DNA of 64,000 bases from Lachnospiraceae bacterium (GTDB lineage Bacteria > Bacillota > Clostridia > Lachnospirales > Lachnospiraceae). Below are positions 35,702 to 57,107 of this stretch, one piece after another. A program made the position numbers and the translations under genes. Position 1 is the stretch's first letter. The number at the start of each line of letters is the position of its first letter. The notes under the pieces were generated by a model. That model ran no database searches. It saw nothing but the letters and a program-made list of their open reading frames with translations, and was not told where the DNA came from. The stretch spans positions 1 through 64,000 of the forward strand of contig JAUNOA010000002.1 in assembly GCA_030531245.1 (NCBI GenBank), written 5' to 3'.

Positions 35702-35745
35702 TAGTCAAAAACCCACTATTTCAATATAATATTGGATAGTGGGTT
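35702..35745 (+). promoter_or_regulatory. nifJ terminator with the binding-protein promoter inside it
   Basis: Arms AACCCACTAT (35710-35719) and ATAGTGGGTT (35736-35745) form a terminator-like stem. TATAAT (35725-35730) lies in the loop, 17 bases from TAGTCA (35702-35707), a weak -35 box. The preceding spacer (35599-35700) holds repeated ACTAAA/TTTAG units and no gene. Confidence 0.55.
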
Positions 35746-35789: not shown

Positions 35790-37070
35790 ATGAAGAAGAT
35801 TTTTGCAATCGCACTGGCAGCTGTTATGGTTCTTTCTCTTGCAGCATGCGGTGGCTCAGCAGCACCTGCAGCAGAGGCAGCAGCACCTGCAGCAGAAGCA
35901 GCTGTTGAAGAAGCAGCTCCGGCTGAGAACGTAGCTCAGGAAAAAGTTGAGATGGCAGCACCTGCAGCAGCAGAAGCTGAGGACGCTGTATCAGGACCTC
36001 TTTCAGAGGAAGAAGCAGCAGCAGCACGTGATGCAGGAACACTTGTATCAGATGCTACAACAGGTTACGAGTACAGTGAGAACACAAAGTACTGGTACTA
36101 TTCAAACTATCCTAACTATAAGGATTTCAAGGCTGACGGAGCAGTTAAGGTTGCATTCGTTTGCAAGTTCTCAGGCGCATGGTTCACACCAAAGCAGGAG
36201 TCACTTGGCGAGACAGTTAAGGCTGCAGGTTATGAGTACCTTTACATCGATGCAAACTCAGATGAGGGTGCATGGCTTGACGGTATCCAGAACATCATCA
36301 ACCAGGATTTCGATGCAGTTGTTATGACACCTGTAAACACAGCTCTCCTTCCGGACGCTATGGCTATGCTTCAGGATGCAGGTATCGCTTATCTTACAAC
36401 TGATGACCCGGGTGCAGATGCATACGGATTCTATTCACCACACTATGGTCTTGATGACTACTATCTCCACAATGAGCTTGGTAAGCTTACAGCTAAGGCA
36501 GCAGAGGACAGAGGTTTCTTTGACGGCGTAGCTGATGATTACAGCGATTTCAGACTTGTATTCTGTGATTCACCTGCAGTTGAGGCCATTCACCTTCGTA
36601 ACGTAGGTTTCTCAGATGCATTCATGGCTGCATATCCTGATATTCCGGAGTCATCAATCGAGTGGCTTGATTGCGGCGGATCACTTGGTGACGAAGTTAT
36701 CGCTAAATTCGCTCCTTACGTAGAGGCTAACAAGGCTAACGTTAAGAAGTGGGTTGTATCTTCAGGTGGTGCTGCATCTGTAGCTCCAAACGTAACAGTA
36801 TTCAAAGAGAACGGTATCGCAGCTGAGGATTGCCTCATTGCTGACTGCTTCTCAACAGAAGAGCCTATCCAGGTTATGCAGGAGAATCCTGATGACTGGA
36901 AGAACAGCTGCTTCGGAGCATTCCTTGCATCAGCTCCTTCAGGAGTTGGTATGGGCGAGATCATCATCGACCTTGTTGAAAACGGAACACCGATCCCATG
37001 CTTCACAGGATATGCATTCATTCCTTGTGATGCTACAACAGCAGACGAGATCCAGGCTACATATTTCTAA
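35790..37070 (+). CDS. Sugar-type ABC transporter substrate-binding lipoprotein
   Basis: A 426-residue extracellular solute-binding lipoprotein. Signal peptide MKKIFAIALAAVMVLSLAAC with lipid-modified Cys20, then an Ala/Glu/Pro-rich linker (about 24-90) made of near-repeated AAPAAEA units, then a type I periplasmic-binding-protein fold (VKVAFVCKFSGAWFTPKQES, NIINQDFDAVVMTPVN) as in ribose/xylose binding proteins. Codon bias is as strong as in nifJ and gap, so it should be abundant. A terminator separates it from the ATPase, allowing excess of binding protein. I start at ATG 35790 with AGGAGG; the open frame upstream is unsupported. The ligand is not predictable: downstream genes suggest an acylated amino acid or amino sugar rather than a plain sugar. 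Confidence 0.9.
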   Translation: MKKIFAIALAAVMVLSLAACGGSAAPAAEAAAPAAEAAVEEAAPAENVAQEKVEMAAPAAAEAEDAVSGPLSEEEAAAARDAGTLVSDATTGYEYSENTKYWYYSNYPNYKDFKADGAVKVAFVCKFSGAWFTPKQESLGETVKAAGYEYLYIDANSDEGAWLDGIQNIINQDFDAVVMTPVNTALLPDAMAMLQDAGIAYLTTDDPGADAYGFYSPHYGLDDYYLHNELGKLTAKAAEDRGFFDGVADDYSDFRLVFCDSPAVEAIHLRNVGFSDAFMAAYPDIPESSIEWLDCGGSLGDEVIAKFAPYVEANKANVKKWVVSSGGAASVAPNVTVFKENGIAAEDCLIADCFSTEEPIQVMQENPDDWKNSCFGAFLASAPSGVGMGEIIIDLVENGTPIPCFTGYAFIPCDATTADEIQATYF

Positions 37071-37108
37071 TAAGAAATACAAAGATTTGATAACTATTTA
37101 GTTATAAA

Positions 37109-37139
37109 AAGGGCGGCGACCATGTCGCCGCCCGATTTT
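37109..37139 (+). terminator. Terminator between binding protein and ATPase
   Basis: Ten-base perfect arms GGGCGGCGAC (37111-37120) and GTCGCCGCCC (37124-37133) with a CAT loop, preceded by A and followed by ATTTTT. Likely leaky, giving less ATPase and permease than binding protein. Confidence 0.85.
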
Positions 37140-37199
37140 TATCTCACAGGAATTGTGTCCTGTCGAATTAGTAATAATAATAAACAGCGAGGTTAGTAT

Positions 37200-38711
37200 A
37201 TGGGTGACGTTATTTTAAGAGCAGAACATATTTCCAAGTCTTTCTATGGAAACCAGGTTCTGGATAACGTTGAACTTTCTCTTGAGCCCGGTAAGGTCCA
37301 TGCGCTTTGCGGCGAGAACGGTGCCGGTAAGTCCACTGTACTTAAGATTATTACAGGTATTTACACCAAGGATGCCGGTGAAATCTATCTTGAGGGAAAA
37401 GAAATCGACGTTCCAAACGTAGACACCGCTAAAAAGTATGGTATTCATGTAGTACCTCAGGAAATGCAGATGCTTCCTGAACTTTCAGTAGCGGAGAATA
37501 TCTTCATAGGAAACCTGCCGAGAACAAAAGCAGGATTCATCGATTGGAAGACACTTTACAAAAGAGCAGAAGAAGTAAAAGCCATGCTTGGAGCTGCAGG
37601 TGAGAAGATCGACCTGAAGAAGAAAGCCGGCGATTACGGAATGGGTACATGGCAGCTGATAGAAATCATGCGTGCCTTTACTACAGATACAATCAAGGTA
37701 ATAGCGTTTGATGAGCCTACATCATCTCTGTCAGATAAGGAAGTTGAAGTTCTTTTCGATCTCATCAGAGGTCTTCGTGAAAAAGGACTTGCCATCGTGT
37801 ATGTAAGCCACAGACTTAAAGAAGTATTCGAACTTTGCGATCAGGTTTCCGTATTCCGTGACGGTAAATATATCGGAACACGTGAAGTTAAGGATATCAA
37901 TACAAACGACCTCATCGCCATGATGATCGGTCGTGACCTCAATATGTTCGGTGATGTAACATTCGGAGCCGATGTTCAGGATGAAGTTGCTGTAAAGGCA
38001 ACAAACTACTCACACGGAAAATTCTATCAGGATATCAACATTGAGGTTCATAAGGGAGAAATCCTCGGAATGTACGGACTGGTTGGTGCCGGACGTACTG
38101 AGTTCGTAAGAGGTCTTTTCGGAGCCGATCCGAAAGACTCCGGTGAGCTTGAGATTTTCGGAAAGAAAGTCAACATCAAGATTCCGCGTGATGCTATCGC
38201 AGCCGGTATCGGCCTTGTAACAGAGGACCGTCGTCAGGAAGGACTTTTACTGATACAGTCTATTAAATGGAATATCAGTATGACAAACTTCCCTGCAATC
38301 ACCGGTGCACTCGGAATGCTTGATATGAAGAAAGAAAAAGCATATGCCGAAGAAGGTATGACAAAGTTCCGTGTTAAGGCAACAGGTATCGAGCAGGTTG
38401 CAGGAGGCCTTTCAGGCGGTAATCAGCAGAAGGTTGTTCTTGCAAAATGGGTCAATGCCGATTGTCAGGTACTCATCGTCGATGAGCCTACACGTGGTAT
38501 CGATGTCGGTGCCAAGGCAGAAGTTTATGCAGCACTGCATGCTCTTGCAAAACAGGGCAAGGCAATAATCATGGTTTCATCTGAGTTACCTGAGATACTC
38601 GGTGTTTCTGACAGAATCGTTGTTATGTGCGAAGGAAAGCAGACAGCAGAGATAGTCAACAGGCCGGGTCTTTCAGAAGAAGAAGTAATTCAGTATGCAT
38701 TCTCAAAGTAA
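37200..38711 (+). CDS. Sugar-type ABC transporter ATP-binding protein (two nucleotide-binding domains)
   Basis: A 503-residue ATPase of the RbsA/MglA type, with two fused nucleotide-binding domains. The first domain has GENGAGKSTVLKI, MGTWQLIEIMRAFTTD (altered signature) and VIAFDEPTSSLS; the second has YGLVGAGRTEFVRGL in place of a full Walker A, the signature LSGGNQQK and LIVDEPTRGIDVG. It powers the two permeases that follow. ATG 37200 follows GAGGTTAG. The degenerate second Walker A is normal for the family. The transporter is of the class used for pentoses, galactose and autoinducer-2, but some members carry nucleosides or other compounds. Confidence 0.93.
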   Translation: MGDVILRAEHISKSFYGNQVLDNVELSLEPGKVHALCGENGAGKSTVLKIITGIYTKDAGEIYLEGKEIDVPNVDTAKKYGIHVVPQEMQMLPELSVAENIFIGNLPRTKAGFIDWKTLYKRAEEVKAMLGAAGEKIDLKKKAGDYGMGTWQLIEIMRAFTTDTIKVIAFDEPTSSLSDKEVEVLFDLIRGLREKGLAIVYVSHRLKEVFELCDQVSVFRDGKYIGTREVKDINTNDLIAMMIGRDLNMFGDVTFGADVQDEVAVKATNYSHGKFYQDINIEVHKGEILGMYGLVGAGRTEFVRGLFGADPKDSGELEIFGKKVNIKIPRDAIAAGIGLVTEDRRQEGLLLIQSIKWNISMTNFPAITGALGMLDMKKEKAYAEEGMTKFRVKATGIEQVAGGLSGGNQQKVVLAKWVNADCQVLIVDEPTRGIDVGAKAEVYAALHALAKQGKAIIMVSSELPEILGVSDRIVVMCEGKQTAEIVNRPGLSEEEVIQYAFSK

Positions 38712-38733
38712 GTCTGGAAAGGGGAGAAATTAT

Positions 38734-39681
38734 ATGGAAAAGAAAAAATTAGATATATCCCGTGATACCAGACAGAACCTGATTATCATCGGTGTATTGT
38801 TGCTTGCAATCATTATTTTTTCAACATTATCAAAGTATTTCCTTAAATGGGATAATATCGTTGCCATTTTAGTAGCAGCAGTTCCTCTCGGACTGGTTGC
38901 TATTTCAGAGAGCAACTGTCTTATGGTCGGTGGTTTCGATATGTCGGTAGGTTATGTGGCCTGCTTCTCCGGAATCATCTGGACAACACTTATTTCAGTA
39001 AATCACTGGAGCACATATCCGGCACTTCTGATCGCACTTCTTTTCGGACTCGCATCAGGTACGCTGGCAGGTGCTTCCGTAGCACTTCTTAATATGCCGC
39101 CGTGGATGACGACGTTTGCTCTTATGAATATCTGGCAGGGCTGCTCGCTTATCGTCACAAGCGGTGAAGCTGTAAGAATGACAAAATTCAAGGATTTCAA
39201 GTGGCTTGGTCAGGCTGATCTTGTAGCAAAGATCCCTCCGATGGTAATACTTCTTATCCTGATTTATGTCATTATGTACTGTGTTCATAAATACACAAAA
39301 CTCGGTCGTGACCTTTTCGTAGTCGGAGGTAACCCCGAAGCAGCAAAGAATGCAGGTATCAATATCGTAAGAGCAAAAATGTTTGCCTTTATGGTTTCCG
39401 GATTCCTGGCAGCTCTTGCAGGAGCACTCTTTGCATCACGTTCAGGTTCAGGTCAGCCGAAGGTAGGTACTATGTACGCAATGCAGGGTATCGCAGCTGC
39501 TACAATCGGTGGAACCAAGGCAGGTAAGACAAACCTGGCGATGACATTCGTAGGTGCCGTCTTTATCATGCTTGTACAGAACGGACTGAATATGATTCAG
39601 GTTCCGGCATTCTACCAGTACATCACAACCGGTGTCATCCTGGTACTTGCCATCCTGCTTCAGACAGATAAGAGAAAATAA
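38734..39681 (+). CDS. ABC transporter permease (RbsC type), first copy
   Basis: A 315-residue permease with about eight to ten helices, of the branched-chain/ribose permease superfamily. Marks are NCLMVGGFDMSVGYVACFSG (in RbsC-type: GGIDLSVG) and the cytoplasmic loop GRDLFVVGGNPEAAKNAGIN, which touches the ATPase. I start at ATG 38734 with a GGGGAGA site; the open frame reaches back 13 codons into the ATPase gene but lacks a site there. It is followed by a second permease of the same family, so the membrane part is probably a heterodimer. Confidence 0.92.
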   Translation: MEKKKLDISRDTRQNLIIIGVLLLAIIIFSTLSKYFLKWDNIVAILVAAVPLGLVAISESNCLMVGGFDMSVGYVACFSGIIWTTLISVNHWSTYPALLIALLFGLASGTLAGASVALLNMPPWMTTFALMNIWQGCSLIVTSGEAVRMTKFKDFKWLGQADLVAKIPPMVILLILIYVIMYCVHKYTKLGRDLFVVGGNPEAAKNAGINIVRAKMFAFMVSGFLAALAGALFASRSGSGQPKVGTMYAMQGIAAATIGGTKAGKTNLAMTFVGAVFIMLVQNGLNMIQVPAFYQYITTGVILVLAILLQTDKRK

Positions 39682-39694
39682 GGAGGAGAAAATC

Positions 39695-40651
39695 ATGAAT
39701 AAAATCAAAACAATGACTCGTGAACAGCTTCTGCCTTATATTCTTATCGCAGTATTCATTATTCTGTTTGCGATTTTCACAGCATTTAACCCGGTATTCC
39801 TTTCATGGGATAGTTTTCATTCTATTCTGCTTACTGCAGTTCCTGTAGGTATCATGGCTATCGGTGAGTGTACTGCTATTACGGCAGGATACTTCGATAT
39901 GTCGGTCGGCCTTATCGCTTCACTGGCAGGATCTTTTGCAGCAAGAGTATGTAACGCAACAGGAAGTGCAGCCCTTGCAATCCTGGTAGGTATCTGTGTA
40001 GGTCTTGTATGCGGTATGATCAACGGATGTCTGGTTTCGTTCCTTCACATGAATGCATTCATCACAACATATGCAATGCAGCTTGTATTCAGAGGAATAC
40101 AGTACATCATAACAGACGGTATGCCGGTTAAGCTTACGCTGGGTATCTGTAACGATTACCTGAAATTCGGTCAGGCTAAGCTTTTCGGTGTTATACAGGG
40201 ACCGATCGTTGTAATGATCTGCCTGTACATACTGGTGGGATTGTTCCTGAAATACAGGAAACTCGGTCGAAGCATTTACCTGGTAGGATCAAATGCAGCC
40301 TGTGCCCATATCAGCGGTATCAATGTAAGAATGGTACAGTTCTTCGTATTCCTTCTTACAGGTTTCCTTGCGTCTATAGCAGGTATGCTTTACGGAGCCC
40401 GTACAGGATCAGCTCCTGCATTTATGGGTGAGAACCTCTGTCTTGAGGGAATCGCTTCATCTATCGTCGGTGGTACATCAATGGCAGGTGGTAAATCTAA
40501 CCTCGCACTCACCTTCCTTGGTGTAGTAATCGTCTATGTTGTTAAGCAGGGTCTGGTAATGATAGGACTTGATGATAACTATCAGTACATCGCAACAGGT
40601 GTCATCCTGTTCCTCGGTGTACTTATGCAGATGGACAGAAAGAAGGCATAA
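39695..40651 (+). CDS. ABC transporter permease (RbsC type), second copy
   Basis: A 318-residue permease of the same family as the gene before it, with GECTAITAGYFDMSVGLIASLAG and the ATPase-contact loop GRSIYLVGSNAACAHISGIN. The two are clearly diverged, so they are old paralogues forming a heterodimer rather than a recent duplication. I start at ATG 39695, which follows AAGGAGGAG; the open frame 21 codons upstream lies inside the first permease gene. Only two bases separate its stop from the PIG-L gene, linking transport directly with a deacetylase. Confidence 0.92.
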   Translation: MNKIKTMTREQLLPYILIAVFIILFAIFTAFNPVFLSWDSFHSILLTAVPVGIMAIGECTAITAGYFDMSVGLIASLAGSFAARVCNATGSAALAILVGICVGLVCGMINGCLVSFLHMNAFITTYAMQLVFRGIQYIITDGMPVKLTLGICNDYLKFGQAKLFGVIQGPIVVMICLYILVGLFLKYRKLGRSIYLVGSNAACAHISGINVRMVQFFVFLLTGFLASIAGMLYGARTGSAPAFMGENLCLEGIASSIVGGTSMAGGKSNLALTFLGVVIVYVVKQGLVMIGLDDNYQYIATGVILFLGVLMQMDRKKA

Positions 40652-40653
40652 TT

Positions 40654-41379
40654 ATGAATATTCTTGCAGTTGGTGCACATCCGGATGATGTCGAGACCAT
40701 GTGCGCAGGCACACTGGCAAAGTATGCATCATTGGGACATAAAGTTTTTATAGCAACAGCAACAAACGGTGATATCGGTTCTGCAACACTTCCGATGGAA
40801 GAGATAGGAAGGATCAGAAAGCAGGAGGCTGCCAATTCAGCAGCTGTTATCGGTGCAGAGTATATCTGTCTGGATTATCACGATGAGATGTTTTTTGAGG
40901 AGCCGAGGAAGACAAGACTTGATTTTATCAATCTTGTACGTTACTGCAAAGCAGATGTAATCTTCACACATTATCCTGAGGATTATAATCCTGATCATGA
41001 ACTTACAGGTAAGATTATCAATGATATCGCGGTCATGATCCCGATTGCTAAGCTTGAGACTCCGTCAGCACCGTATGATGTTATTCCTTCAATATGGTAT
41101 TTCGAGCCGTCTTGTTCAATGAGATTTGTTCCTACAGATTATGTTGACATAACAGATTTCTATGAGACAAAGATGAAGATGCTTAACTGTATGGAATCAC
41201 AGAGAGCATGGATGGCAGACAATTACGCATCAATGCGTGGCGATGAGGACAGATTCTTCGATACAATCAGAATCACTTCTGAGTTCAGAGGAATGCAGGC
41301 TCAGTGCAAGTATGCCGAGGGCTTCGTCCGTGCACTTGACGGTATGAGAACACGTATGACAGAGCGTGTACTCCCGTAA
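40654..41379 (+). CDS. PIG-L (LmbE) family deacetylase
   Basis: A 241-residue zinc enzyme of the LmbE/PIG-L family, which removes acetyl groups from N-acetylglucosamine conjugates and related amides; one branch (GalB) is instead a hydratase of 4-oxalomesaconate. The zinc motif AHPDDVE (His9, Asp12 region) and the second site DYNPDHELTG are intact. ATG 40654 comes two bases after the permease stop, so it is translated with the transporter. In this context deamidation of the imported ligand is the simplest job. A hairpin (41398-41425) separates it from the first deacylase. Confidence 0.88.
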   Translation: MNILAVGAHPDDVETMCAGTLAKYASLGHKVFIATATNGDIGSATLPMEEIGRIRKQEAANSAAVIGAEYICLDYHDEMFFEEPRKTRLDFINLVRYCKADVIFTHYPEDYNPDHELTGKIINDIAVMIPIAKLETPSAPYDVIPSIWYFEPSCSMRFVPTDYVDITDFYETKMKMLNCMESQRAWMADNYASMRGDEDRFFDTIRITSEFRGMQAQCKYAEGFVRALDGMRTRMTERVLP

Positions 41380-41397
41380 GTAACAAAGCCAGACACC

Positions 41398-41425
41398 GGC
41401 GGGTCTATCAGATGATAGGCCCGCC
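41398..41425 (+). terminator. Stem-loop between PIG-L and the first deacylase
   Basis: Twelve-base arms GGCGGGTCTATC and GATAGGCCCGCC (one G-U pair) with a four-base loop, followed by TTTAT only. A weak terminator or an RNA-processing stem within the operon. Confidence 0.5.
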
Positions 41426-41456
41426 TTTATGCAGATTATGAAAAAGAGGCACAAAA

Positions 41457-43100
41457 ATGGGAATTTACAAAAGAAAACCGGACATCATTATCAGGAACGG
41501 CTGTATCGTAGACGGAACGGGAAAACTTCCGTACTATGCAGACATTGCAATAATCGGAGAGAAAATTGACTATATCGGAGATCTTAAGGACGTGACAGCG
41601 CCTCTTGATATCGACGCTCATCATAAATATGTAACAAACGGATTTATCGATGCACATTCACATGCAGATCAGACTATCTGGTCGGCACCTGAAGCAAAGA
41701 ATGTCATCGCTCAGGGTGTAACCACGGAAATAGTCGGTAACTGTGGCTTTTCAATGAGAACATCGATTGCACCGGAGGATTTTGATAAGGCAGGAGACGG
41801 AATAGACTGTGTATATAATCTTCCGGGCCCAAAGTATCCGAAAGGGGCTATGGCGGCAACTCTTGATCGTGCGGAAAAGCAGGGATGCGGAGTAAATACA
41901 GCATGGCATTGCGGACACAATGATATCCGAATGATGGTCGGATGCATGCAGTCAGTTCCTACCAAAGAACAGATGGATGAAATGAAGGAATGGATCAGAG
42001 AATGTATGGAAGCCGGATATATCGGATTCTCTACAGGACTGGAATTTGTTCCGGGTATCGTAAGTAAACCCGAGGAAGTCGAGGAACTTGCGATGGTTGC
42101 CGCAGAGTATGATGCCAACTATTCCACTCATATGAGGGACGAGGGAACGTATATTCTTGAAGCAGTAAATGAGTTTCTGAATGTAATCAGGAAAACAGGA
42201 ATGAGAGGAACTGTTTCTCACCTGAATGTTAAGTATGATAACGGTATTCCGAATGATTATCTTCAGAAGGGTATGCAGATGCTTAAGGATGCAAGAGATG
42301 TAGAACATCTGAACGTATACTGTGATATGCTTCCGACAACATTTGCTACAGGCGGAGCTATGGCTATGCTTCCTCCGTGGCTTTATGCAAACGGATGGGA
42401 TGAAGCAAGAAGAATTCTTGCCAGCAAAGAAGGAAGAATAAAAGTCAAAGGGGATCTTAACAGATACTGGAGATTCCTTGCAGCCGGTCAGTGGGAGAGA
42501 CTTCTGTTTATTATGCCGCCGTATGACGCACACATTGCAATCACTCCGTTTGCTGATCTGGTGAAGGAATATGATAAGGAACCTGCAGATGTATTTCTGG
42601 ATGTAATGATGGGATGCTCAACAATCAAGGAAGCCAATGCAACAGGAATCACAGGAACGGTATTTTTTGAGCAGCAGCTGATAGACAGTGTTGTTACAGA
42701 TCCGATATATATGTGGCAGATGGATGTCGGATTTGTGGACCTTGACAACCCGAAAGGCAGAGTCGGTATGCGTCAGACATATATGAGCATGAGTCAGTTC
42801 ATAATCAGATATGTACGTGAACTCGGGGTAATCTCTATTCAGGATGCATGTAAAAAACTCGGTTCTGTTCCGGCTCAGCATTTCATGCTGGAAGACAGAG
42901 GAACTATCGAGCCCGGCAAGTATGCAGATATCAATGTTTTTGATATCAATGCACTTAAGATCAATTCGACATTTACAGATCCTATGCAGTATTCAACGGG
43001 AATGGATTATGTATTTGTAAACGGAAGACCTGTTATTGCAAACGGACAGTTTACCGGTGATAGGGCAGGAAAAGTATTGAGACACCTGCGGAAAAACTGA
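41457..43100 (+). CDS. N-acyl-D-amino-acid deacylase family protein, copy 1
   Basis: A 547-residue amidohydrolase of the D-aminoacylase type, which removes acyl groups from N-acyl-D-amino acids. The metal set of this family (in the Alcaligenes enzyme His67, His69, Cys96, His220, His250) is present at His67 and His69 (DAHSHAD), Cys96 (GNCGFS), His225 (THMRDEGT) and His255 (SHLNV). The usual GSDG motif with the catalytic aspartate is not found; VVTDPIYMW (Asp415) is the likely stand-in, and the family's closing HPR-G motif is replaced. It therefore belongs to a divergent subfamily with unknown substrate. ATG 41457 follows AAGAGGC. Two close paralogues follow in tandem. Confidence 0.85.
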   Translation: MGIYKRKPDIIIRNGCIVDGTGKLPYYADIAIIGEKIDYIGDLKDVTAPLDIDAHHKYVTNGFIDAHSHADQTIWSAPEAKNVIAQGVTTEIVGNCGFSMRTSIAPEDFDKAGDGIDCVYNLPGPKYPKGAMAATLDRAEKQGCGVNTAWHCGHNDIRMMVGCMQSVPTKEQMDEMKEWIRECMEAGYIGFSTGLEFVPGIVSKPEEVEELAMVAAEYDANYSTHMRDEGTYILEAVNEFLNVIRKTGMRGTVSHLNVKYDNGIPNDYLQKGMQMLKDARDVEHLNVYCDMLPTTFATGGAMAMLPPWLYANGWDEARRILASKEGRIKVKGDLNRYWRFLAAGQWERLLFIMPPYDAHIAITPFADLVKEYDKEPADVFLDVMMGCSTIKEANATGITGTVFFEQQLIDSVVTDPIYMWQMDVGFVDLDNPKGRVGMRQTYMSMSQFIIRYVRELGVISIQDACKKLGSVPAQHFMLEDRGTIEPGKYADINVFDINALKINSTFTDPMQYSTGMDYVFVNGRPVIANGQFTGDRAGKVLRHLRKN

Positions 43101-43191
43101 AACGATGTAAGACATTCCGACATTGAAATCATAAAATAAAAATTACATTACAGACATTGCAAATCAGATATTATACAAAGGAGAGTAAAAG

Positions 43192-44844
43192 ATGGGTATT
43201 TACAACAGAAAACCTGATGTCATCATCAGAAACGGATGTATCGTAGACGGAACAGGAAAGATGCCGTATTATGCAGACCTTGCTATCATCGGCGATAAGA
43301 TTGATTATATCGGAGATCTTAAAGGTGTAACAGCACCTCTTGATATTGATGCACATCACAAATATGTAACTAACGGATTTATTGATTCACATACACATTC
43401 TGACCGTTCACTCTGGACTGCACCGGAGGCATACAGCTTTGTCACACAGGGTATTACAACTCAGGTTGCGGGAAACTGCGGATATTCAATGAGAACGATC
43501 ATGGACGGATGCGAGTTCGACCCTGCAGGTGATGGGATCGACTGCGTATACAATCTCCCGGGTCCGACATATCCTAAGGGAAGTCTGGCAGCTACGCTTG
43601 ATAAGGCTGAGAAAATGGGAATGGGAAATAACGTTGCATTTCTTTGCGGGCATAACGATCTGAGAGTTATGGCACAATGCTACGGTGTAACACCTACAGA
43701 AGAGCAGTATAAGATCATGGAGGATTTTATTGATGAGGCTATGCAGGCCGGATTTATCGGATTTTCAACAGGTCTTGAGTTTGTTCCCGGTATCAATTCA
43801 AAGCCTGATGAAGTCGTAAGACTTGCAAAGGTTGCCGCAAAGTACGATGCAAACTATTCAACTCATATGAGAGATGAGGGAACATATATTCTTGAAGCAA
43901 TCAATGAGTTCCTTACTGTCATCCGTGCAACTGGAATGAGAGGAACCGTTTCTCATCTTAATGTCAAGTATGATAACGGTGTTCCGAATGATTACCTGCA
44001 GAAGGGTATGGATATGCTTAAGAAAGCACGTGAGGTTGAACATCTCAATGTAATGTGTGATATGCTTCCGACAACATTTGCAACAGGCGGGGCTATGGCT
44101 CTTCTTCCTCCATGGGTTTATGCAGGAGGCTGGGATGCGGCAAAGAAGATTCTTGCTGATCCGAACGGAAGAGAAAAGGTTAAAGGAGACTTCTGCAGAT
44201 ACTGGAGATTTTTATCATATGGTCAGTGGGACAGACTGCTTTATGTTCAGCCTGAGTATATGCCTGAGATATGTACGGTACCGTTCAAGGATCTGGTTGA
44301 AAAATCGGGCAAAGAACCTATCGACGTATTCCTTGATATTATGCAGGCCGCTCCGACACTTGAAGATGCAAATGCAGTACATATTCAGGGCAATGTATTC
44401 TTTGAGCAGCAGCTTATCGACTCTGTAGTGACAGATCCTATCTATATGTGGATGACGGATGCAAGCAATACATATGAGCCGCAGGAAGGACCGCTTGCAA
44501 AGAACACCGCCAATGTTCAGGAATATATGAGCATGATTTATTTCTTCATCAGATATGTCCGCGAGCTTGGTGTTATATCGATTCAGGATGCATGTAAGAA
44601 GGTCGGATCTGTTCCTGCAGCACACTTTATGCTTGAAGACAGAGGAACTCTCGAGGTCGGTAAATATGCTGATATCAATGTATTTGATATCAATGAGCTT
44701 AAGATCAATTCGACATTTACGGAGCCGTGCAAGTACTCATCCGGTATGAGCTATGTATTTGTAAACGGAAAACCGGTTATTGCAAACGGTGAGCGTACAG
44801 GTGCCAGAGTAGGAAAAGTCCTCAGACATCTTCCGAAGAACTAA
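43192..44844 (+). CDS. N-acyl-D-amino-acid deacylase family protein, copy 2
   Basis: A 550-residue paralogue of the genes on both sides. Metal ligands are all present: DSHTHSD (His67, His69), GNCGYS (Cys96), THMRDEGT and SHLNV. Its first 65 residues differ from copy 3 at one position only, while the rest is far more diverged. The pocket-facing segments differ from copy 1, for instance HTHSDRSLWTAPEA against HSHADQTIWSAPEA and NGCVT-type loops near 160, as expected for a different acyl or amino-acid preference. ATG 43192 follows AAAGGAGAG. The 91-base spacer before it contains three GACATT units. Confidence 0.85.
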   Translation: MGIYNRKPDVIIRNGCIVDGTGKMPYYADLAIIGDKIDYIGDLKGVTAPLDIDAHHKYVTNGFIDSHTHSDRSLWTAPEAYSFVTQGITTQVAGNCGYSMRTIMDGCEFDPAGDGIDCVYNLPGPTYPKGSLAATLDKAEKMGMGNNVAFLCGHNDLRVMAQCYGVTPTEEQYKIMEDFIDEAMQAGFIGFSTGLEFVPGINSKPDEVVRLAKVAAKYDANYSTHMRDEGTYILEAINEFLTVIRATGMRGTVSHLNVKYDNGVPNDYLQKGMDMLKKAREVEHLNVMCDMLPTTFATGGAMALLPPWVYAGGWDAAKKILADPNGREKVKGDFCRYWRFLSYGQWDRLLYVQPEYMPEICTVPFKDLVEKSGKEPIDVFLDIMQAAPTLEDANAVHIQGNVFFEQQLIDSVVTDPIYMWMTDASNTYEPQEGPLAKNTANVQEYMSMIYFFIRYVRELGVISIQDACKKVGSVPAAHFMLEDRGTLEVGKYADINVFDINELKINSTFTEPCKYSSGMSYVFVNGKPVIANGERTGARVGKVLRHLPKN

Positions 44845-44941
44845 GCATCATAATAATTGTAATATCAGAGGATTAGTTATTTAATTATCTGAGCATGCTG
44901 AGTTATAGTATATAATTTGATTAATACAAAGAGGTACTAAA

Positions 44942-46588: not shown

Positions 46589-46607
46589 AGAATAAGAGAG
46601 ACATTAT

Positions 46608-47531: not shown

Positions 47532-47547
47532 TCAGGAGGAGATCAAA

Positions 47548-48276: not shown

Positions 48277-49085
48277 TGACTATCAAGGAATATGCAATGA
48301 ACGGTCAGATCAAACCGGGACTTAGAATCATCGACTCACACGCACACCTCGGTGACGGTGAACAGGGAGCTTTATATATCAAGACTTTACCGGCAGCAGA
48401 AAGTGTGAGACTGTCAAAGAGAATAGGTATCAATGCCATGGTGGCAAGTTCTCTTAAGGCTTTGTACGGAGGTGCTCCTGCAGGGAACGAACGTATGATG
48501 GAAATGACAAGACTCTTTCCCGGATATGTCTATGCATCGATTTTTTATGATCCGCATTATCACGATGAGTGTATATCACAGATAGAGAAGTATAAGGAAG
48601 ATCCGGGCTTCGTGGGAGTCAAGATTCATCCGAGAGAGACGCATACCTGCATCGCTACAGCAGATTACGACAGACTGTATAAATACTGTATAGATAATGA
48701 TATTCTGGTTGCCTGTCATACCTGGGAGACAGAACCGGCAAATAATCCGGCGGATTACTTTCCGGTCATGGATAGATTCCCGCAGCTGAAGCTTCAGCTT
48801 TGTCATATGGGCGGAACATACAGGGGATGTATAGATTCCATCAATCTCGCGAATAAATATAAAAATGTTTATCTGGATTTCAACGGATCATTGTATTCGC
48901 AGATCTGGATTGAGGAACTCATAAAGGAAGCTCCTATAGAGAAATTTGTATTCGGATCGGATCAGACCTTCAACGATCCGAGAATCATGGTTGGACGCGT
49001 GCTGATGGCGGATTTTGATGATGAGATCAAACAGAAACTGCTTGCAGAAAATTTTGAAAAAATCATTGGCAGAAAACTTGTATAA
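48273..49085 (+). CDS. Amidohydrolase-2 family metal-dependent hydrolase
   Basis: A 270-residue TIM-barrel hydrolase or decarboxylase. Complete metal set: His23 and His25 (DSHAH), His119 (KIHP), His149 (ACHTW), His178 (LCHMGG) and Asp230 (FGSDQT). The family includes lactonases, decarboxylases and amide hydrolases acting on small cyclic or aromatic acids. The start ATG overlaps the previous gene by four bases (ATGATG following GTGAGAGC). Its role is likely ring or amide hydrolysis of an intermediate of the island. It is followed 14 bases later by an MFS transporter. Confidence 0.85.
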   Translation: MMTIKEYAMNGQIKPGLRIIDSHAHLGDGEQGALYIKTLPAAESVRLSKRIGINAMVASSLKALYGGAPAGNERMMEMTRLFPGYVYASIFYDPHYHDECISQIEKYKEDPGFVGVKIHPRETHTCIATADYDRLYKYCIDNDILVACHTWETEPANNPADYFPVMDRFPQLKLQLCHMGGTYRGCIDSINLANKYKNVYLDFNGSLYSQIWIEELIKEAPIEKFVFGSDQTFNDPRIMVGRVLMADFDDEIKQKLLAENFEKIIGRKLV

Positions 49086-49099
49086 AGAGACTTGAGAAA

Positions 49100-50383
49100 A
49101 TGGATGCTGATACAGAATTAAAACAACATAAGATACATCACGCATGGCTTGTTATGATCGCATGCTGTGCCTTATATGCAACAGTCGGACTGTTAAACAA
49201 TACGCAGGGGTTATACTACCCTGCGATTTGTGCTGATTTGGGATGCAAAACTTCACAGTTTACGATCACTACCGTGTTCAACGGACTGGCCGCAATGGTG
49301 ACTCTTGGTATAGTAGATAAGGTGTATAAGAGATTCCCGACAAGGATAGTTTTGTTCTTAATGGTAACTCTGTTCTCATTATCATTTGTCCTCAGATCTT
49401 TTGCGAGAAGCTTCGTGCAGTTCTGCGTAGTATATATCATAATGGGTATCGCGAGTGCATTTATTATTTATGTTCCTATACCTATGCTGATCAACAAGTG
49501 GTTCGTAAGGCGCAGAGGGCTGGCACTGGGTGTGTCGCTTCTGATGTCAGGTGTTGCTGCATCTGTCAGCAGTCCGATCATCAACCATTTCATTGATACT
49601 ATCGGATGGCAGAAGACAGGAGTAATCAATGCAGTAGCGGCATTTCTTATTTCGGGTCCGGTGATATTGCTCTTTGTCCGTACAAGCCCTGAAGATGTGG
49701 GACTTTTACCTTATGGTATGAAAGAGCGTGACGTAAGGGTTTGGAGAAACGAAAATCAGAATGATCCGGAAACACCGGAAAAGATTCGTGAAAAGAATAA
49801 AGCAAAGACAGAACGCTCAAAGGAAGAGACAATAAAATTTGTGATATGTTTTGTAATGGCGGTTGCCCTGATGCTTATCGCAGGAATATATCATCAGTTC
49901 TCCAACTTCTCGGTAAGCATAGGAGTCGGAACTGCCGTAGGTGCTACCTTGCTGTCGCTGAATATGATAGGGAATATGGTAAGCAAGGCCGTCATCGGAC
50001 CGTGTGTAGACAGGTTCGGTGGAAAAAAGACAATGCTTTGTGCATTTCTTCTTGTCATACTCTCATTTATTATGATGACTTTATACATTGTTCCCGGATT
50101 TTTATATATCGGTGCATTTCTTACAGGAATCGCTGCCGCTACAAACGGTATCGCGCTGCCGATAATGATAGGTTCTTTTGCAGAAGGTGATGACTATGTC
50201 TACTACACCTCCAAAGTAGCAATGGGGACAATGCTGTCAACGGCCTTCATCACTTATATCGGAAGCGCAATATATGATCTCTGCGGAACTTATGCAGTTG
50301 AGTTTATCATTTATGCAGTGATGCAGTTCATATGCATCATACTCATGTTTATATTACTAAAAGACAAAGAAGAAAAGAAATGA
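49100..50383 (+). CDS. MFS transporter (OFA-like), first copy
   Basis: A 427-residue, 12-helix major-facilitator transporter, with a central hydrophilic loop (about 205-240). The first-helix pattern HHAWLVMIACCALYATVGLLN and the RRRGLALGVSLLMSG segment after helix 4 resemble the oxalate/formate and monocarboxylate-type families. It probably carries an organic anion. ATG 49100; the site is AGAGACTTGAG. Its TGA overlaps the next MFS gene in ATGA, so the two are made together. Confidence 0.88.
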   Translation: MDADTELKQHKIHHAWLVMIACCALYATVGLLNNTQGLYYPAICADLGCKTSQFTITTVFNGLAAMVTLGIVDKVYKRFPTRIVLFLMVTLFSLSFVLRSFARSFVQFCVVYIIMGIASAFIIYVPIPMLINKWFVRRRGLALGVSLLMSGVAASVSSPIINHFIDTIGWQKTGVINAVAAFLISGPVILLFVRTSPEDVGLLPYGMKERDVRVWRNENQNDPETPEKIREKNKAKTERSKEETIKFVICFVMAVALMLIAGIYHQFSNFSVSIGVGTAVGATLLSLNMIGNMVSKAVIGPCVDRFGGKKTMLCAFLLVILSFIMMTLYIVPGFLYIGAFLTGIAAATNGIALPIMIGSFAEGDDYVYYTSKVAMGTMLSTAFITYIGSAIYDLCGTYAVEFIIYAVMQFICIILMFILLKDKEEKK

Positions 50384-51681
50384 CGGAAAATAAGACCAGG
50401 AACAATAAGATACATTATGCGTGGTACATACTTATACTTGTGTGTGTACTTAATGCGACTACGATGGGATTTCTTGTAAACTGCAATGGCGTATATTACC
50501 AGCCGATAATCAAAGAGATGGGATGGGAACTGTCGCAGTATACATTTATGATGATTTTCATCGGTCTCGCCGCATTTTTCACATTACCGTTTGTGGATAA
50601 GATATTTGCCAGGTATCCGATCAAATTAGTGCTGACAGTCACTCTGATCGGATATGCGGTTTGTTTTGCACTTAAAGGAGCTATGTACTCTCTGTTGGGA
50701 TTCGGTATCCTTTTTGTTTTCACCGGTATTTTTTCTGCATTTTTACTCTACGTTCCCGGACCGATGCTTATAAATGCCTGGTTTGCAAAAAAAAGAGGCA
50801 TGGCACTGGGAATAGCCATGATGTCGATGGGAATCGGAGGAGCAGTGATGAATCCCATACTCGGGGCTGTAATTGAAAGTGCCGGGTGGAGAACAGCGAC
50901 TTATATTCAGGGAGGTCTGTCGATACTGATAGCGGTTCCGTGCATACTTCTGATTGCCAGAAAGACGCCGGAAGAAATTGGTCTGAAACCATACGGAGCC
51001 GAAGAACTGGAGGCGGAAAGAAGAAAAGCCATAGAAGATGCCATGGCAGGAAAAGTTCCGGCAAATGATGCCGGTTCACAGGTGTTTGACCGACATAAAA
51101 TCTCAAAAAAGGAAAAATCAATCAGATTTACTATGTGCTTTGTACTGGCAATCCTTGCAAATCTCATGTCGGCTATACCGCAGCAGCTTCCGAGCTATGC
51201 CACGACATGCGGATTTGCATCAATGATAGGTGCAACACTGGTTTCGGTAAATATGATAGGAAATACCACTGTCAAGGCTATAATGGGAGTCTGTGTAGAT
51301 AAGTTCGGTGAGAGAAAGGTATACACAGTCACGATGCTTCTGATCCTTGCCGGCCTGGTATTTGCAATAATAGGAGGTCAGAATATAATCTTCCTGTATA
51401 TTGCGGCAGCGATACTGGGACTTACGGCAGCAGATAATGTCATGCTTCCGCCCATGTCAGTCAGGACATTTGCAGACGGAACGGAATATGCACATTATAT
51501 GTCCAGAGTCTCGATGGGAACGATGTTTGCTACAGCTATCGGTACATTTCTGATCAGCTGGCTGTATGATGTTTCCGGAAGTTATATAAATGTTTTTCTG
51601 ATTTACGGAGTAATACAGATTGCCGCACTGATACTGATGTTGTTTATATTCAGTAAACGAATAGATAATGAGAGGAAGTAA
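50380..51681 (+). CDS. MFS transporter (OFA-like), second copy
   Basis: A 433-residue paralogue of the gene before it, starting at ATG 50380 that overlaps the previous TGA. It matches helix by helix (HYAWYILILVCVLNATTMGF; KKRGMALGIAMMSMGIGG) but at modest identity, so the duplication is old. The loop between helices 6 and 7 carries AEELEAERRKAIEDAMAGK. Two related transporters in one operon suggest two related substrates, or a substrate and product. Substrate unknown. Confidence 0.88.
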   Translation: MTENKTRNNKIHYAWYILILVCVLNATTMGFLVNCNGVYYQPIIKEMGWELSQYTFMMIFIGLAAFFTLPFVDKIFARYPIKLVLTVTLIGYAVCFALKGAMYSLLGFGILFVFTGIFSAFLLYVPGPMLINAWFAKKRGMALGIAMMSMGIGGAVMNPILGAVIESAGWRTATYIQGGLSILIAVPCILLIARKTPEEIGLKPYGAEELEAERRKAIEDAMAGKVPANDAGSQVFDRHKISKKEKSIRFTMCFVLAILANLMSAIPQQLPSYATTCGFASMIGATLVSVNMIGNTTVKAIMGVCVDKFGERKVYTVTMLLILAGLVFAIIGGQNIIFLYIAAAILGLTAADNVMLPPMSVRTFADGTEYAHYMSRVSMGTMFATAIGTFLISWLYDVSGSYINVFLIYGVIQIAALILMLFIFSKRIDNERK

Positions 51682-51685
51682 AGTA

Positions 51686-52435
51686 ATGGCTGTTTCAAAA
51701 CTTTTTAATGGAAATGAACCGAGCATAGGAATGATCACAGACTGGACAGAGATCCCGATGCTTGAGATGGCTGCAATGGCAGGAGTGCATTATATTGTGC
51801 TTGATAATGAACACAGAGCAGCTTCACCGGAAGGAATGGAGAGAGTGCTGGCAACCGCCCAGGGATGTGATGTTCCGACACTTATCCGTGTACCGGAATT
51901 TGAGATCAATTCCATCGGTCGCGTGCTTGATCAGGGATTTGACGGAATCATCATCCCGCATATTGAGCAGGCGGCAGATCTTGATGAGGTCATGAAGTAT
52001 GTATATTTCCCTCCTCGCGGTGAAAGAGGGATAGGACAGGCAAGAGGAAACAACTATGTCATCCCTATGACAACGGCTGAGTACGTTGATTACGTAAATA
52101 TGGAAGACTTTATAGTTGCTCAGATTGAAAGCCCTCTCGGAGTAAAGAATGCAGAAGAGATAGCTTCGCATCCGGGAGTTGCTGCAGTTATGGTGGGACC
52201 GAGAGATCTGTCTACAGAACTCGGAAAACCCGGTGACTTCTTTGATGACGAAGTTCAGGGAATGATCTCCGAAGTAAACGAGGCATGCAGGAAGTACGGA
52301 AAGAAACTGATAATGCCTTGCGGAACGGCAGCATTTGAAAGATATCAGAATAAGGGTATCAATAACTTCCTGGTATCGGCCGGTCCTGCATTTTTCGGAG
52401 CGATCAGGAATGCAGTGAAGCTGGCAACGGAATAA
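51686..52435 (+). CDS. HpcH/HpaI aldolase family protein
   Basis: A 249-residue class II aldolase of the HpcH/HpaI type that splits 4-hydroxy-2-oxo acids to pyruvate (or another oxo acid) and an aldehyde. Catalytic and metal residues are in place: DNEHRAA (His base), TLIRVPE (Arg), QIESPLGVKNAEEI (Glu) and VGPRDLSTELG (Asp); the PPRGERGIGQARGNNY segment is also family-typical. ATG 51686 follows AGAGGAAGT; an upstream ATG at 51668 overlaps the transporter gene and is less likely. The acceptor aldehyde is unknown. Together with the aminotransferase it could finish degradation of a hydroxylated amino acid (inference). Confidence 0.88.
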   Translation: MAVSKLFNGNEPSIGMITDWTEIPMLEMAAMAGVHYIVLDNEHRAASPEGMERVLATAQGCDVPTLIRVPEFEINSIGRVLDQGFDGIIIPHIEQAADLDEVMKYVYFPPRGERGIGQARGNNYVIPMTTAEYVDYVNMEDFIVAQIESPLGVKNAEEIASHPGVAAVMVGPRDLSTELGKPGDFFDDEVQGMISEVNEACRKYGKKLIMPCGTAAFERYQNKGINNFLVSAGPAFFGAIRNAVKLATE

Positions 52436-52498
52436 ATCAGGTACGTGCAGCCGGCAAGATAGATCGGCGGTTCAGGCTATTATAAAACGGCGGGAAAA

Positions 52499-54175
52499 AT
52501 GTCATATAAATTTCTTACAGCAGGCGAGTGCTGTGTGACTGTAAGCTTCGGAAACGAAGTAAGTATCGAAATGAATACAAAAGTCAGGATGCTGAAAAAA
52601 GAACTGGAAGAAAATCCGGTCAAAGGAGTGATTGAAACAGTTCCTACTTACTGTGCTCTTTCGGTGCATTACAGACCGGATGTGATAAGGCGTACCGGGC
52701 TGGAGGATGAACTGAGAAAAAGTATCGCGCGTATGAAACCGATAGCGGAATCGACAGAAACATACAAAGAAGTGCCGGTTTATTACGGAGGCGAGACAGG
52801 ACCTGATTTAGAGGACTGCGCTGAACTGGAAGGAATAAGCACAGAAGAATTTATAAAAAAGCATACGGAACATGAATATTATGTATATCAGCTGGGTTTT
52901 TCACCGGGACATCCTTATATGGCAAGAAGCGAAGAGCCGTTTTCATTTAAGAGAAGACAGACTCCGAGAGTTGAGATTCCCGCCCATTCGGTGGTTGTTC
53001 AGACAAACCTGACAAATATCACTCCGTTTTCACAGCCGAGCGGATGGAACATAATCGGTTCAACTCCTCTGAATATTACAGACTATACAAAAGATGATCC
53101 TTTTTTCTTCAAATCCGGTGATCATGTAAGACTGATACCCGTCGATAAGAAAGAGTATGACAGAATAAAAAACGAGCAGGAAAATGCTGCCGAAATCCGA
53201 CGCAGAAGTAAACCCGGAAAAACCGATGAGTCAGTCGGAGGATTCATAGTTGAAAATGGCGGACTGCTGACTACGATCCAGGATGAGGGGCGTATCGGAT
53301 ATCAGGCAAGCGGTGTAACTCCGGCCGGACCGATGGATCACAGAGCTTTTCATCTGGCCAATATTCTGGTTGGAAACGAATCGGGAGCACCTGCATTGGA
53401 GGCGACGATACTGGGACCATCACTGAGGTTTCTAAAGAGTAATTTTATAGCTGTGACCGGTGCCGATCTTTCACCGGAGATAAACGGCAGACCTGTAAAA
53501 ATGTACTCTACTCTAAGCGTCAGGGAAGGTGATGTGCTGAGTTTCGGAAAGAGAAAGTGCGGATGCAGAGCCTATATAGCATTTGCCGGAGGAATCAAAG
53601 AAAAGCAGGTGATGGGCAGCTGTGCTGCAGATCTTAAAAACCGGCTCGGAGGACACGAAGGCAGGGAGCTTAAAGCAGGAGATGAGATACAGACCGGAGT
53701 AAGCATCGGACATGTCAGGATGATGACACTGCCGGTCGGGATATATGATGACAGGGATATAACAGTCAGGGCTGTGACAGGTCCGCAGGATGACAGATTC
53801 ACAAAGCAAGGCATCAGAAAATTTTTTAACTATTCTGCAACAGTAACAGACAAATGTGACAGACAGGGTATCAGACTGGACTGTGAACCGCTGGAGTTTG
53901 TCACGGATTGCAACATAATCAGTGACGGTATTTCATTCGGCGCAATACAGGTCACGGGAGACGGAAGACCTATCATACTTCTTGCCGACAGGCAGAGTGT
54001 AGGCGGTTACACGAAAATAGCAAATGTTATTTATACAGATCTTCCGAAACTGGCGCAGGCGATGCCCGGATGCAGAGTCAGATTTGTAGAAGTCAGTGTG
54101 GGACTGGCAGAGGAATTATATATCAGAGAGATGGACGCATTAAAGAAAGCGGAGGAAGAATATGCACAGTATTGA
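52499..54175 (+). CDS. 5-oxoprolinase subunits B and C fused (PxpB-PxpC; KipI-KipA)
   Basis: A 558-residue fusion of two subunits of the ATP-dependent 5-oxoprolinase, which opens pyroglutamate to glutamate. Residues 1 to about 225 are the PxpB/KipI part with QLGFSPGHPYM (about 131-141), RRQTPRVEIPAHSV, and SGWNIIGSTPL; residues about 247-558 are the PxpC/KipA part with ENGGLLTTIQDEGRIGYQ, GPMDHRAFHLANILVG, and the late GGYTKIANV. A charged linker (DRIKNEQENAAEIRRRSKPG) joins them. The Arg found in the usual GRTP is Ser (GSTP), so substrate range may differ. ATG 52499 has a weak site (GGCGGG). PxpA overlaps its end by 14 bases. Confidence 0.9.
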   Translation: MSYKFLTAGECCVTVSFGNEVSIEMNTKVRMLKKELEENPVKGVIETVPTYCALSVHYRPDVIRRTGLEDELRKSIARMKPIAESTETYKEVPVYYGGETGPDLEDCAELEGISTEEFIKKHTEHEYYVYQLGFSPGHPYMARSEEPFSFKRRQTPRVEIPAHSVVVQTNLTNITPFSQPSGWNIIGSTPLNITDYTKDDPFFFKSGDHVRLIPVDKKEYDRIKNEQENAAEIRRRSKPGKTDESVGGFIVENGGLLTTIQDEGRIGYQASGVTPAGPMDHRAFHLANILVGNESGAPALEATILGPSLRFLKSNFIAVTGADLSPEINGRPVKMYSTLSVREGDVLSFGKRKCGCRAYIAFAGGIKEKQVMGSCAADLKNRLGGHEGRELKAGDEIQTGVSIGHVRMMTLPVGIYDDRDITVRAVTGPQDDRFTKQGIRKFFNYSATVTDKCDRQGIRLDCEPLEFVTDCNIISDGISFGAIQVTGDGRPIILLADRQSVGGYTKIANVIYTDLPKLAQAMPGCRVRFVEVSVGLAEELYIREMDALKKAEEEYAQY

Positions 54176-54908
54176 TCTGAACAGTGATCTGGGCGAAAGC
54201 TTCGGAGCATATAAGCTGGGATGCGATGAAGAGATAATAAAATACGTGACTGCTGCCAATATAGCATGCGGATGGCATGCAGGAGATCCTATGGTCATGA
54301 CAAAGACCGTCAGGATGGCCAAAGAACACGGAGCAGATGTCGGTGCTCATCCGGGGCTTCCGGACCTTATGGGATTCGGCAGAAGAAAAATGATGGTATC
54401 CGGGGAGGAACTAAAATCATATGTCAAGTATCAGCTTGGCGCCATGTCGGCATTTACAAGAGCAGAGAAGATACCGCTTCATCATATGGTTCCTCACGGT
54501 GCGATCAGCCAGTTCAACGAGGAGTGGGCTCACGCAATATGCGAAGCAGTAGGCGAAGTAGATGACAATATAATCATATATGCGATCGCAGGTTCTGCGC
54601 TGGATAAAATCGCAAGAGCCGAGGGACTGAAAGTGGCTTCCGAAATATTTGCGGACAGAGCACTGATGGATGATCTTTCACTGGCCCCGCGCAGCATGCC
54701 GGGATCGATGATAACCGATGAGGATATTGCAATCGAAAGATGTATAAGGATGGTCAAGGAAGGAAGGGTGACAGGACTGTCAGGCAAGGAACTGGAGATA
54801 CAGGGTGATACTTTGTGCGTACACGGTGACGGACCCAAAGCACTCGCTTTCGTACGGAAAATAAGTGAAGCATTCAGACAGGAAGGAATACAGATACATG
54901 GAATTTAA
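54162..54908 (+). CDS. pxpA: 5-oxoprolinase subunit A (PxpA; LamB/YcsF family)
   Basis: A 248-residue subunit that completes the 5-oxoprolinase with the PxpB-PxpC fusion. Family marks are DLNSDLGESFGAYKLG, AANIACGWHAGDP, VGAHPGLPDLMGFGRR and VPHGAISQFNEEWA (usually KPHGALYN: the Lys is Val here and LYN is ISQ). The altered KPHGALYN motif and the altered PxpB suggest a substrate related to, but not identical with, pyroglutamate (inference). ATG 54162 lies 14 bases inside the previous gene with AGGAAG. Confidence 0.9.
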   Translation: MHSIDLNSDLGESFGAYKLGCDEEIIKYVTAANIACGWHAGDPMVMTKTVRMAKEHGADVGAHPGLPDLMGFGRRKMMVSGEELKSYVKYQLGAMSAFTRAEKIPLHHMVPHGAISQFNEEWAHAICEAVGEVDDNIIIYAIAGSALDKIARAEGLKVASEIFADRALMDDLSLAPRSMPGSMITDEDIAIERCIRMVKEGRVTGLSGKELEIQGDTLCVHGDGPKALAFVRKISEAFRQEGIQIHGI

Positions 54909-56076
54909 TCCGGCAAAAAGAATGGAAGCTCTTCCGTTTTCGGGGATAAGAGCGATACTTGAAAAAGCAAATAAGATGCAGGCGGCGGGAGATAATATAA
55001 TACATCTTGAGATCGGACGCCCGGATTTTGATTCGCCGCGGAAGGTCAAAGAGACAGCGTATGAAGAGATAGAAAAAGGAAATGTATTCTATACATCGAA
55101 TTACGGAACTCCGGAGCTGCGCTCGGCTATCGCAGAATTTGAAAAGAAAAAGAATGGTGTGCAGTACGATCCGTCAGAGGTACTGGTGACGGTGGGAGTA
55201 TGTGAGGCGACATGGAACTGTATGTTTGCCTGTCTTGACCCGGAGGATGAGGTTCTGGTTCCGAATCCGGTGTGGCTAAACTATATACATGTACCTACAG
55301 CTTTCGGAGCAAAGCCGGTATCATACAGCCTTAAAGAGGAAAACGATTTTCAGATAGATGTCGACGAACTTGAAAGACTGGTGACAGAAAAAACCAAAAT
55401 GCTTGTCATAGTCGATCCGAGTAATCCGATAGGCGGAGTGTTCTCAGGAGAGACACTTGAGAAGGTGGCAGCATTTGCCATTAAGCATGATCTGATCGTG
55501 CTGTCAGATGAGATATATGAACATCTGGTTTATGACGGAGCAAAGCATACAAGTATCGGTTCACTTCCGGGTATGAAGGAAAGGACGATGAAGCTCGGAG
55601 GATTTTCCAAAGCATATTCCATGACGGGCTGGAGACTCGGCTATATGTGTGCTCCTAAGGAGTTTATCGCTGCTGTGGTCAGAGTACACCAGTACAATAC
55701 GGTATGCGCTTCTTCTTTCGTTCAGAAGGCAGCAGTCACCGCTCTTAAGGAGTGTGACGATGATGTTGAGAATATGCGCCGAGAATATGAGCGCAGAAAG
55801 AATTATCTGGTCAGGACGCTGAATGAAATCGACGGTATCAGCTGCAATGATCCAAAGGGTGCATTTTACATTCTGGTAAATATCAAGGCACTCGGTATGA
55901 GTTCTATGGATGTATCGGATTATCTGCTTGAAAAAGCAAAAATCGCAACAGTACCGGGATCGGCTTTCGGAAGTGAGGGAGAGGGATATATCAGAATATC
56001 ATATGCAACGGCATATGAGCAGCTGGTGGAAGCATGTGAGAGGATCCGGAAAGCGGTGGTTGAACTGAATAAGTAA
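54898..56076 (+). CDS. Class I/II aminotransferase
   Basis: A 392-residue pyridoxal-phosphate aminotransferase of fold type I. It has the substrate-binding ILEKANKMQAAGDNIIHLEIGRPDF, DPSNPIGGV (Asn contact), SDEIYEHLVYDG (Asp and Tyr contacts), and the lysine motif GGFSKAYSMTGWRLGYM. It resembles aspartate/aromatic aminotransferase-like proteins of clostridia. I start at ATG 54898, which overlaps the end of pxpA by 11 bases and gives the family N-terminus; the longer frame has no support. As last gene of the island, it probably converts the freed amino acid to its 2-oxo acid. Amino-acid preference is unknown. Confidence 0.9.
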   Translation: MEFNPAKRMEALPFSGIRAILEKANKMQAAGDNIIHLEIGRPDFDSPRKVKETAYEEIEKGNVFYTSNYGTPELRSAIAEFEKKKNGVQYDPSEVLVTVGVCEATWNCMFACLDPEDEVLVPNPVWLNYIHVPTAFGAKPVSYSLKEENDFQIDVDELERLVTEKTKMLVIVDPSNPIGGVFSGETLEKVAAFAIKHDLIVLSDEIYEHLVYDGAKHTSIGSLPGMKERTMKLGGFSKAYSMTGWRLGYMCAPKEFIAAVVRVHQYNTVCASSFVQKAAVTALKECDDDVENMRREYERRKNYLVRTLNEIDGISCNDPKGAFYILVNIKALGMSSMDVSDYLLEKAKIATVPGSAFGSEGEGYIRISYATAYEQLVEACERIRKAVVELNK

Positions 56077-56147
56077 TTATGCAGGAAAATGTGATCATTC
56101 ATCCGGGCATTGCTCCGGGAAAATGTGATACATACCGGTATATAGAT

Positions 56148-57076: not shown

Positions 57077-57107
57077 GATATACCTCCGCATAAAAGTTTT
57101 GATATCA

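Follow-up and report, generated by a model that had tools for sequence, protein, structure and literature searches.

A Lachnospiraceae operon for import and probable amide breakdown carries three D-aminoacylase-fold amidohydrolases with replaced substrate anchors

We analyzed the first 64 kb (the window) of the 93.7-kb contig C58 from a gut Lachnospiraceae bacterium (genome 1.84 Mb, 98% complete). Positions 35790-56076 appear to form one catabolic operon, in which a CUT2 importer would feed amide hydrolases, a lactamase, a transaminase and a pyruvate aldolase, and an amino-sugar-like conjugate is our leading guess for the substrate; we regard this reading as a whole as an even call. As an operon it is of an ordinary type; two of its parts are unusual: a clade of amidohydrolases with rebuilt pockets (DAA1–3) that lacks the usual substrate anchors, and an amidohydrolase pair that includes a pseudoenzyme. 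The layout, its conservation, the gene families, the catalytic residues present or absent, and the clade and gene history are direct observations. The original prediction had grouped these genes correctly; the active sites, as far as their sequences can tell, lend no support to the substrate class it proposed.

Open reading frames and family profiles define 17 genes between 35790 and 56076, all on the plus strand, as are the regulatory features below. The original prediction gave the same coordinates and strand and counted sixteen genes; its mostly tiny gaps (-14 to 129 bp) and its list of families (ABC import, deacetylase, D-aminoacylase relatives and so forth) both hold. Larger gaps separate PIG-L from DAA1 and HpcH from PxpBC. 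A promoter-like site, TAGTCA-17-TATAAT (35702..35730; 10/12 matches, by consensus match only), lies 5' of the operon, and a terminator with a 17-pair stem (56144..56183) closes it 3' of the aminotransferase gene. Two strong hairpins are found inside, one between the binding protein and ATPase genes (37111..37133; -23.4 kcal/mol, z -5.6) and one with a short T-run 3' of the PIG-L gene (41398..41425; -23.9 kcal/mol, z -4.9). Hairpins of this kind can set expression ratios. Some transcription may therefore stop within the operon, or the mRNA may be processed there, and the two hairpins could split the transcript. The binding protein gene has a good ribosome-binding site, a promoter-like site in front and a hairpin behind it, all of which would be consistent with strong expression.

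The whole set recurs in UBA1755 (G300), a metagenome-assembled genome (MAG) of a Lachnospiraceae bacterium from the same genus, where all 16 gene families are grouped on one strand (40-98% protein identity) and directly follow the same pyruvate:ferredoxin oxidoreductase (PFOR) gene. Gene order differs little: DAA1 and DAA2 have changed places, DAA3 is found past the AH2 pair, a single MFS gene follows PIG-L, and the gap between HpcH and PxpBC is wider still. Looking for the gene set in relatives had been proposed as a check, and in this genus mate the genes are indeed together and not scattered. Recurrence in nearly the same order argues for a grouping beyond chance, and thus for a real catabolic operon; this is good evidence, at the level of sequence and gene order, that the genes work together. 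A third genome of the genus, only 80% complete, is without DAA genes. Outside the genus, a search with two strict peptide patterns, for which absence is weak evidence, returned DAA homologues in unrelated surroundings and no copy of the operon. These DAA relatives (56-71% identity) occur in other families, single or in tandem, next to different genes (PEPCK-like in L011, TRAP-type transporter in L015, ceramidase-like in L012, all named from sequence starts and not by profile). Six of the eight DAA loci come from MAGs with titles that name hindgut samples of goat, sheep, water deer or water buffalo, and the collection may be biased that way.

Behind the operon lies a divergent LysR gene (56192-57091, minus strand), past which we observed a second catabolic unit (57244-63434, continuing beyond the window to about position 70828 of C58, ∼70.8 kb). 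It encodes two FAD oxidoreductases, AtuA, DUF4387, a two-part class I fumarase, a fused amidohydrolase (AH2c), a ceramidase-like protein, an acetate/butyrate-kinase-like protein, an M20 peptidase, an MscS-like protein and a creatininase. In UBA1755, AtuA, DUF4387, both fumarase parts, AH2c, the kinase and the creatininase share the operon's contig, separated from it by ∼11 kb of other genes. The fumarase and AtuA genes prompted us to consider the methylaspartate route of glutamate (PMC4682846). No methylaspartate ammonia-lyase was found in the 98% complete genome, which speaks against this one onward route from glutamate.

The first gene of the operon encodes SBP (35790..37070), a sugar-type (Peripla_BP_4) lipoprotein binding protein (47.7 bits, over the profile cut-off), whose closest PDB chains are weakly matching sugar-binding proteins. 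SBP is 74% identical in UBA1755, and no relatives were found at E ≤ 1e-30 among 391 sampled genomes of the class. With a ribose/arabinose-type double ATPase (ABCA, 37200..38711) and two permeases (perm1, 38734..39681; perm2, 39695..40651), all assigned by family profile, it completes the double-domain ATPase, BPD_transp_2 permeases and Peripla_BP_4 binding protein of a CUT2 sugar-type ABC importer. PIGL (40654..41379) matches the profile of the PIG-L/LmbE deacetylases, contains both metal motifs (AHPDD and PDH) and is 97.5% identical in UBA1755. Relatives of PIG-L were found adjoining sugar genes, with no operon common to their neighbourhoods. The genome has another PIG-L gene at the end of a different contig (G000:C86:27318-28040, in L054), with 78% identity to that of the island. 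Family profiles identify three further carriers: an auxin-efflux-carrier-type transporter (AEC, Mem_trans; 46608..47531) and two MFS transporters (MFS1, 49100..50383; MFS2, 50380..51681).

DAA1 (41457..43100) was assigned to the D-aminoacylase-fold amidohydrolases by profile, alignment, tree and model, and DAA2 (43192..44844) and DAA3 (44942..46588) are its paralogues by alignment and tree. An AlphaFold2 model calculated from a 14-sequence alignment (pLDDT 83; the three paralogues alone gave a poor model, pLDDT 37) matches D-aminoacylases and OngB with Z-scores of 44-45, compared with 31 for the next amidohydrolases. The zinc and acid-base residues (His-67, His-69, Cys-96, His-220, His-250 and Asp-366) are kept in 14/14 members of the DAA clade. 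The anchors for the acylamido and α-carboxylate groups, whose roles in holding the substrate have been described and which are reported to be strictly conserved among D-aminoacylases and OngB (PMC12017989), are replaced: Y192F, K252N and Y283L in all 14 members and R377Q in 12. Two MAFFT modes agree on these positions, of which Arg-377, following an insertion, is the least certainly aligned. Eleven of 12 other clostridial homologues keep the anchors; the twelfth (L036) is the closest outgroup to the DAA clade, which the tree separates from the other homologues with support 100/100. Plasmid records contained only distant D-aminoacylases (≤31% identical). The loss of anchors for N-acyl amino acids suggests that the substrate is probably something else, so that the acylated amino acids originally proposed are disfavoured; the name ‘D-aminoacylase’ is probably wrong for this clade.

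In the tree, each of the three DAA proteins groups with one UBA1755 copy, and the triplication is thus older than the species split. The paralogues (41457-46588) look mosaic: residues 1–66 share 91-99% identity between copies of one genome versus 86-91% between orthologues, and residues 201–270 are likewise similar between copies (83-96%), whereas segments 67–200 and 301–440 share 48-73% between copies and 61-97% between orthologues. An N-terminal scaffold that is closer within a genome than between orthologues suggests gene conversion. The simplest reading of the sequences would be a scaffold that was exchanged or constrained and a pocket that diverged, and such divergence, together with a triplication predating the split, suggests that the three enzymes act on substrates or bonds that are related but not the same.

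The second unusual part consists of two overlapping Amidohydro_2 genes, AH2a (47548..48276) and AH2b (48273..49085), assigned by profile and alignment. The metal ligands of this family (an HxH motif, two further His and an Asp) are complete in AH2b (5/5: His-23, His-25, His-149, His-178 and Asp-230) and entirely absent from its partner AH2a (0/5), which we classify as a pseudoenzyme. The same arrangement, a ligand-less first and an intact second partner, is present in 9/9 pairs checked, namely AH2a/AH2b, the fused AH2c of the second catabolic unit, and seven further pairs found in other clostridial genomes. As a module the pair occurs in several clostridial families (L017:1447-3105, and pairs in L066-L069, L071, L073 and L074), often adjoining DegT-type aminotransferases and sugar transporters (neighbours recognised from sequence starts); the neighbourhoods of AH2a relatives have only the pair in common, not the whole operon.

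The remaining genes, all assigned by profile, encode an aldolase, a 5-oxoprolinase and an aminotransferase. The HpcH/HpaI-type 2-oxo-acid aldolase (51668..52435) carries the active-site motifs of its family (EH, RxP, QIE and GPxDLS), and its nearest matches are sugar-acid aldolases. PxpA (LamB/YcsF; 54162..54908) and the fused subunits PxpBC (52499..54175) bring PxpA, PxpB and PxpC together in the island, followed by a class I/II PLP aminotransferase (AT, 54898..56076). The Pxp set is the second in the genome: a canonical NRAMP-type transporter-PxpA-PxpB-PxpC cluster lies elsewhere (G000:C99:8274-10923, in L075), to which the island proteins are 53% (PxpA), 39% (PxpB part) and 46% (PxpC part) identical. 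With a diverged set beside the canonical cluster, the island genes are not the housekeeping set and pyroglutamate itself need not be their substrate; it is plausible that PxpBC and PxpA might act on a lactam other than 5-oxoproline.

For the operon as a whole we infer the individual reactions, the sequence of steps and the substrate as follows. The CUT2 importer would bring in a small, probably polar, amide-bearing compound, from which PIG-L may take off an N-acetyl or related group. DAA1–3, with conserved zinc chemistry and a rebuilt pocket, would cut related amide-like bonds in substrates without the usual N-acyl-α-amino-acid handle, and AH2b, probably held by the inactive AH2a, would perform a further hydrolysis. 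PxpBC and PxpA, as a second ATP-dependent lactamase, could then open a 5-oxoproline-like ring, the PLP enzyme could move the amino group, and the aldolase could release pyruvate and an aldehyde by retro-aldol cleavage, with the AEC and MFS carriers moving acids in or out. Import, deacylation, amide cleavage, ring opening, transamination and retro-aldol cleavage would make a chemically sensible route. The original prediction of import, amide cleavage, lactam opening, transamination and aldol cleavage thus stands as a conserved catabolic operon with an importer, amide and lactam hydrolases, a PLP enzyme and a pyruvate-type aldolase; its linear order of steps is conjectural. Literature searches found no described pathway with this gene set, in line with what had been stated.

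Sugar-type import, PIG-L and a sugar-acid aldolase family lead us to lean towards an amino-sugar-like compound, perhaps a conjugate; further hints are the sugar genes beside PIG-L relatives and the DegT-type aminotransferases and sugar transporters beside AH2 pairs. The lost DAA anchors lead us away from N-acyl amino acids and from N-acetyl-glucosaminate (GlcNAc1A). It is quite unlikely, in our view, that the operon serves the uptake of N-acylated (D-)amino acids or cyclised glutamate analogues, with DAA1–3 as ordinary N-acyl-D-amino-acid deacylases of differing side-chain preference: the closest characterized relatives of DAA are D-aminoacylases, three pocket variants would suit several side chains, and 5-oxoprolinase and aminotransferase suit amino-acid products, but the strictly conserved acylamido and α-carboxylate residues (PMC12017989) are replaced and the importer is of the sugar type. 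That same importer, the presence of PIG-L, the match of HpcH to sugar-acid aldolases and the fold shared by OngB and DAA would fit the breakdown of an oxidised amino sugar, for instance GlcNAc1A, with Ong-like deacetylation and deamination and a 2-oxo-3-deoxy-acid aldolase yielding pyruvate. We consider this analogy more doubtful still, since the DAA clade lacks the OngB carboxylate anchors (K254, Y285 and R379; PMC12017989) and since none of the ong cluster genes for an SSS transporter, the OngC-type deaminase, a RidA protein and the KdgK kinase (PMC9537276) is annotated among the 17 genes.

The locus might also be a composite of mere neighbours (ABC-PIG-L, a DAA-to-HpcH block and pxp-aminotransferase), expressed separately for unrelated substrates. 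The strong hairpin 3' of PIG-L, the larger gaps, one of them wider in the genus mate, and DAA genes standing alone in other Clostridia would fit such an arrangement, which is nevertheless unlikely given that all pieces lie together on the same strand in UBA1755 despite local shuffling and that a separate canonical pxp cluster exists. Against our main reading speak the weak matches of SBP to sugar-binding proteins and the internal hairpins, which could split the operon, and the pxp-aminotransferase genes could serve another substrate. A bolder reading, possible though rather doubtful, would be an undescribed anaerobic pathway: a new, triplicated DAA subfamily, freed from the N-acyl-amino-acid handle and with diversified pockets, would cleave gut amides that have no known dedicated pathway, alongside an amidohydrolase pair of pseudoenzyme and enzyme and an additional 5-oxoprolinase that serves another lactam.

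Amidohydrolases of the family PF07969 are numerous in gut bacteria, mostly uncharacterized and often automatically named ‘D-aminoacylase’. The DAA locus offers three natural pocket variants on one shared scaffold; their coupling to a matched binding protein means that the ligand can be looked for directly. The locus also brings to light an amidohydrolase module of two genes, present in several clostridial families, whose first partner lacks any metal ligand.

Compared with D-aminoacylase, a subtype V amidohydrolase, and N-acyl-D-glutamate deacylase (PDB IDs 1m7j and 3gip), the DAA enzymes share the fold, the HxH motif, the Cys/His/His zinc site and the catalytic Asp, but they are without the anchors Tyr-192, Lys-252, Tyr-283 and Arg-377, are ∼65 residues longer and form a separate clade. 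The GlcNAc1A deacetylase OngB is likewise a D-aminoacylase-fold de-N-acylase, encoded in a sugar-linked catabolic cluster (PMC12017989, PMC9537276); it keeps all anchors, whereas the DAA clade has Asn, Leu and Gln in place of Lys254, Tyr285 and Arg379 (PMC12017989). UacY of the reductive uric acid pathway also represents a D-aminoacylase-family enzyme in an anaerobic catabolic cluster and is reported to cleave a ureido group and, unlike the DAA clade, to keep the D-aminoacyl-binding residues (PMC12507026); no member of the XdhD/SsnA/HyuA/YgeX set is annotated among the 17 genes. We also considered a bile salt hydrolase that is metal-dependent and belongs to the same Pfam family; it is described as dinuclear, with an extra C-terminal domain (PMC13081902, preprint). 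Finally, the island has the PxpA, PxpB and PxpC subunit families of the 5-oxoproline utilisation system pxpT-pxpABC, whose layout was reported for C. glutamicum and compared with B. subtilis and C. difficile (PMC13274462). In the island B and C are fused and an NRAMP-type PxpT is missing, while the canonical C99 cluster resembles the C. glutamicum layout.
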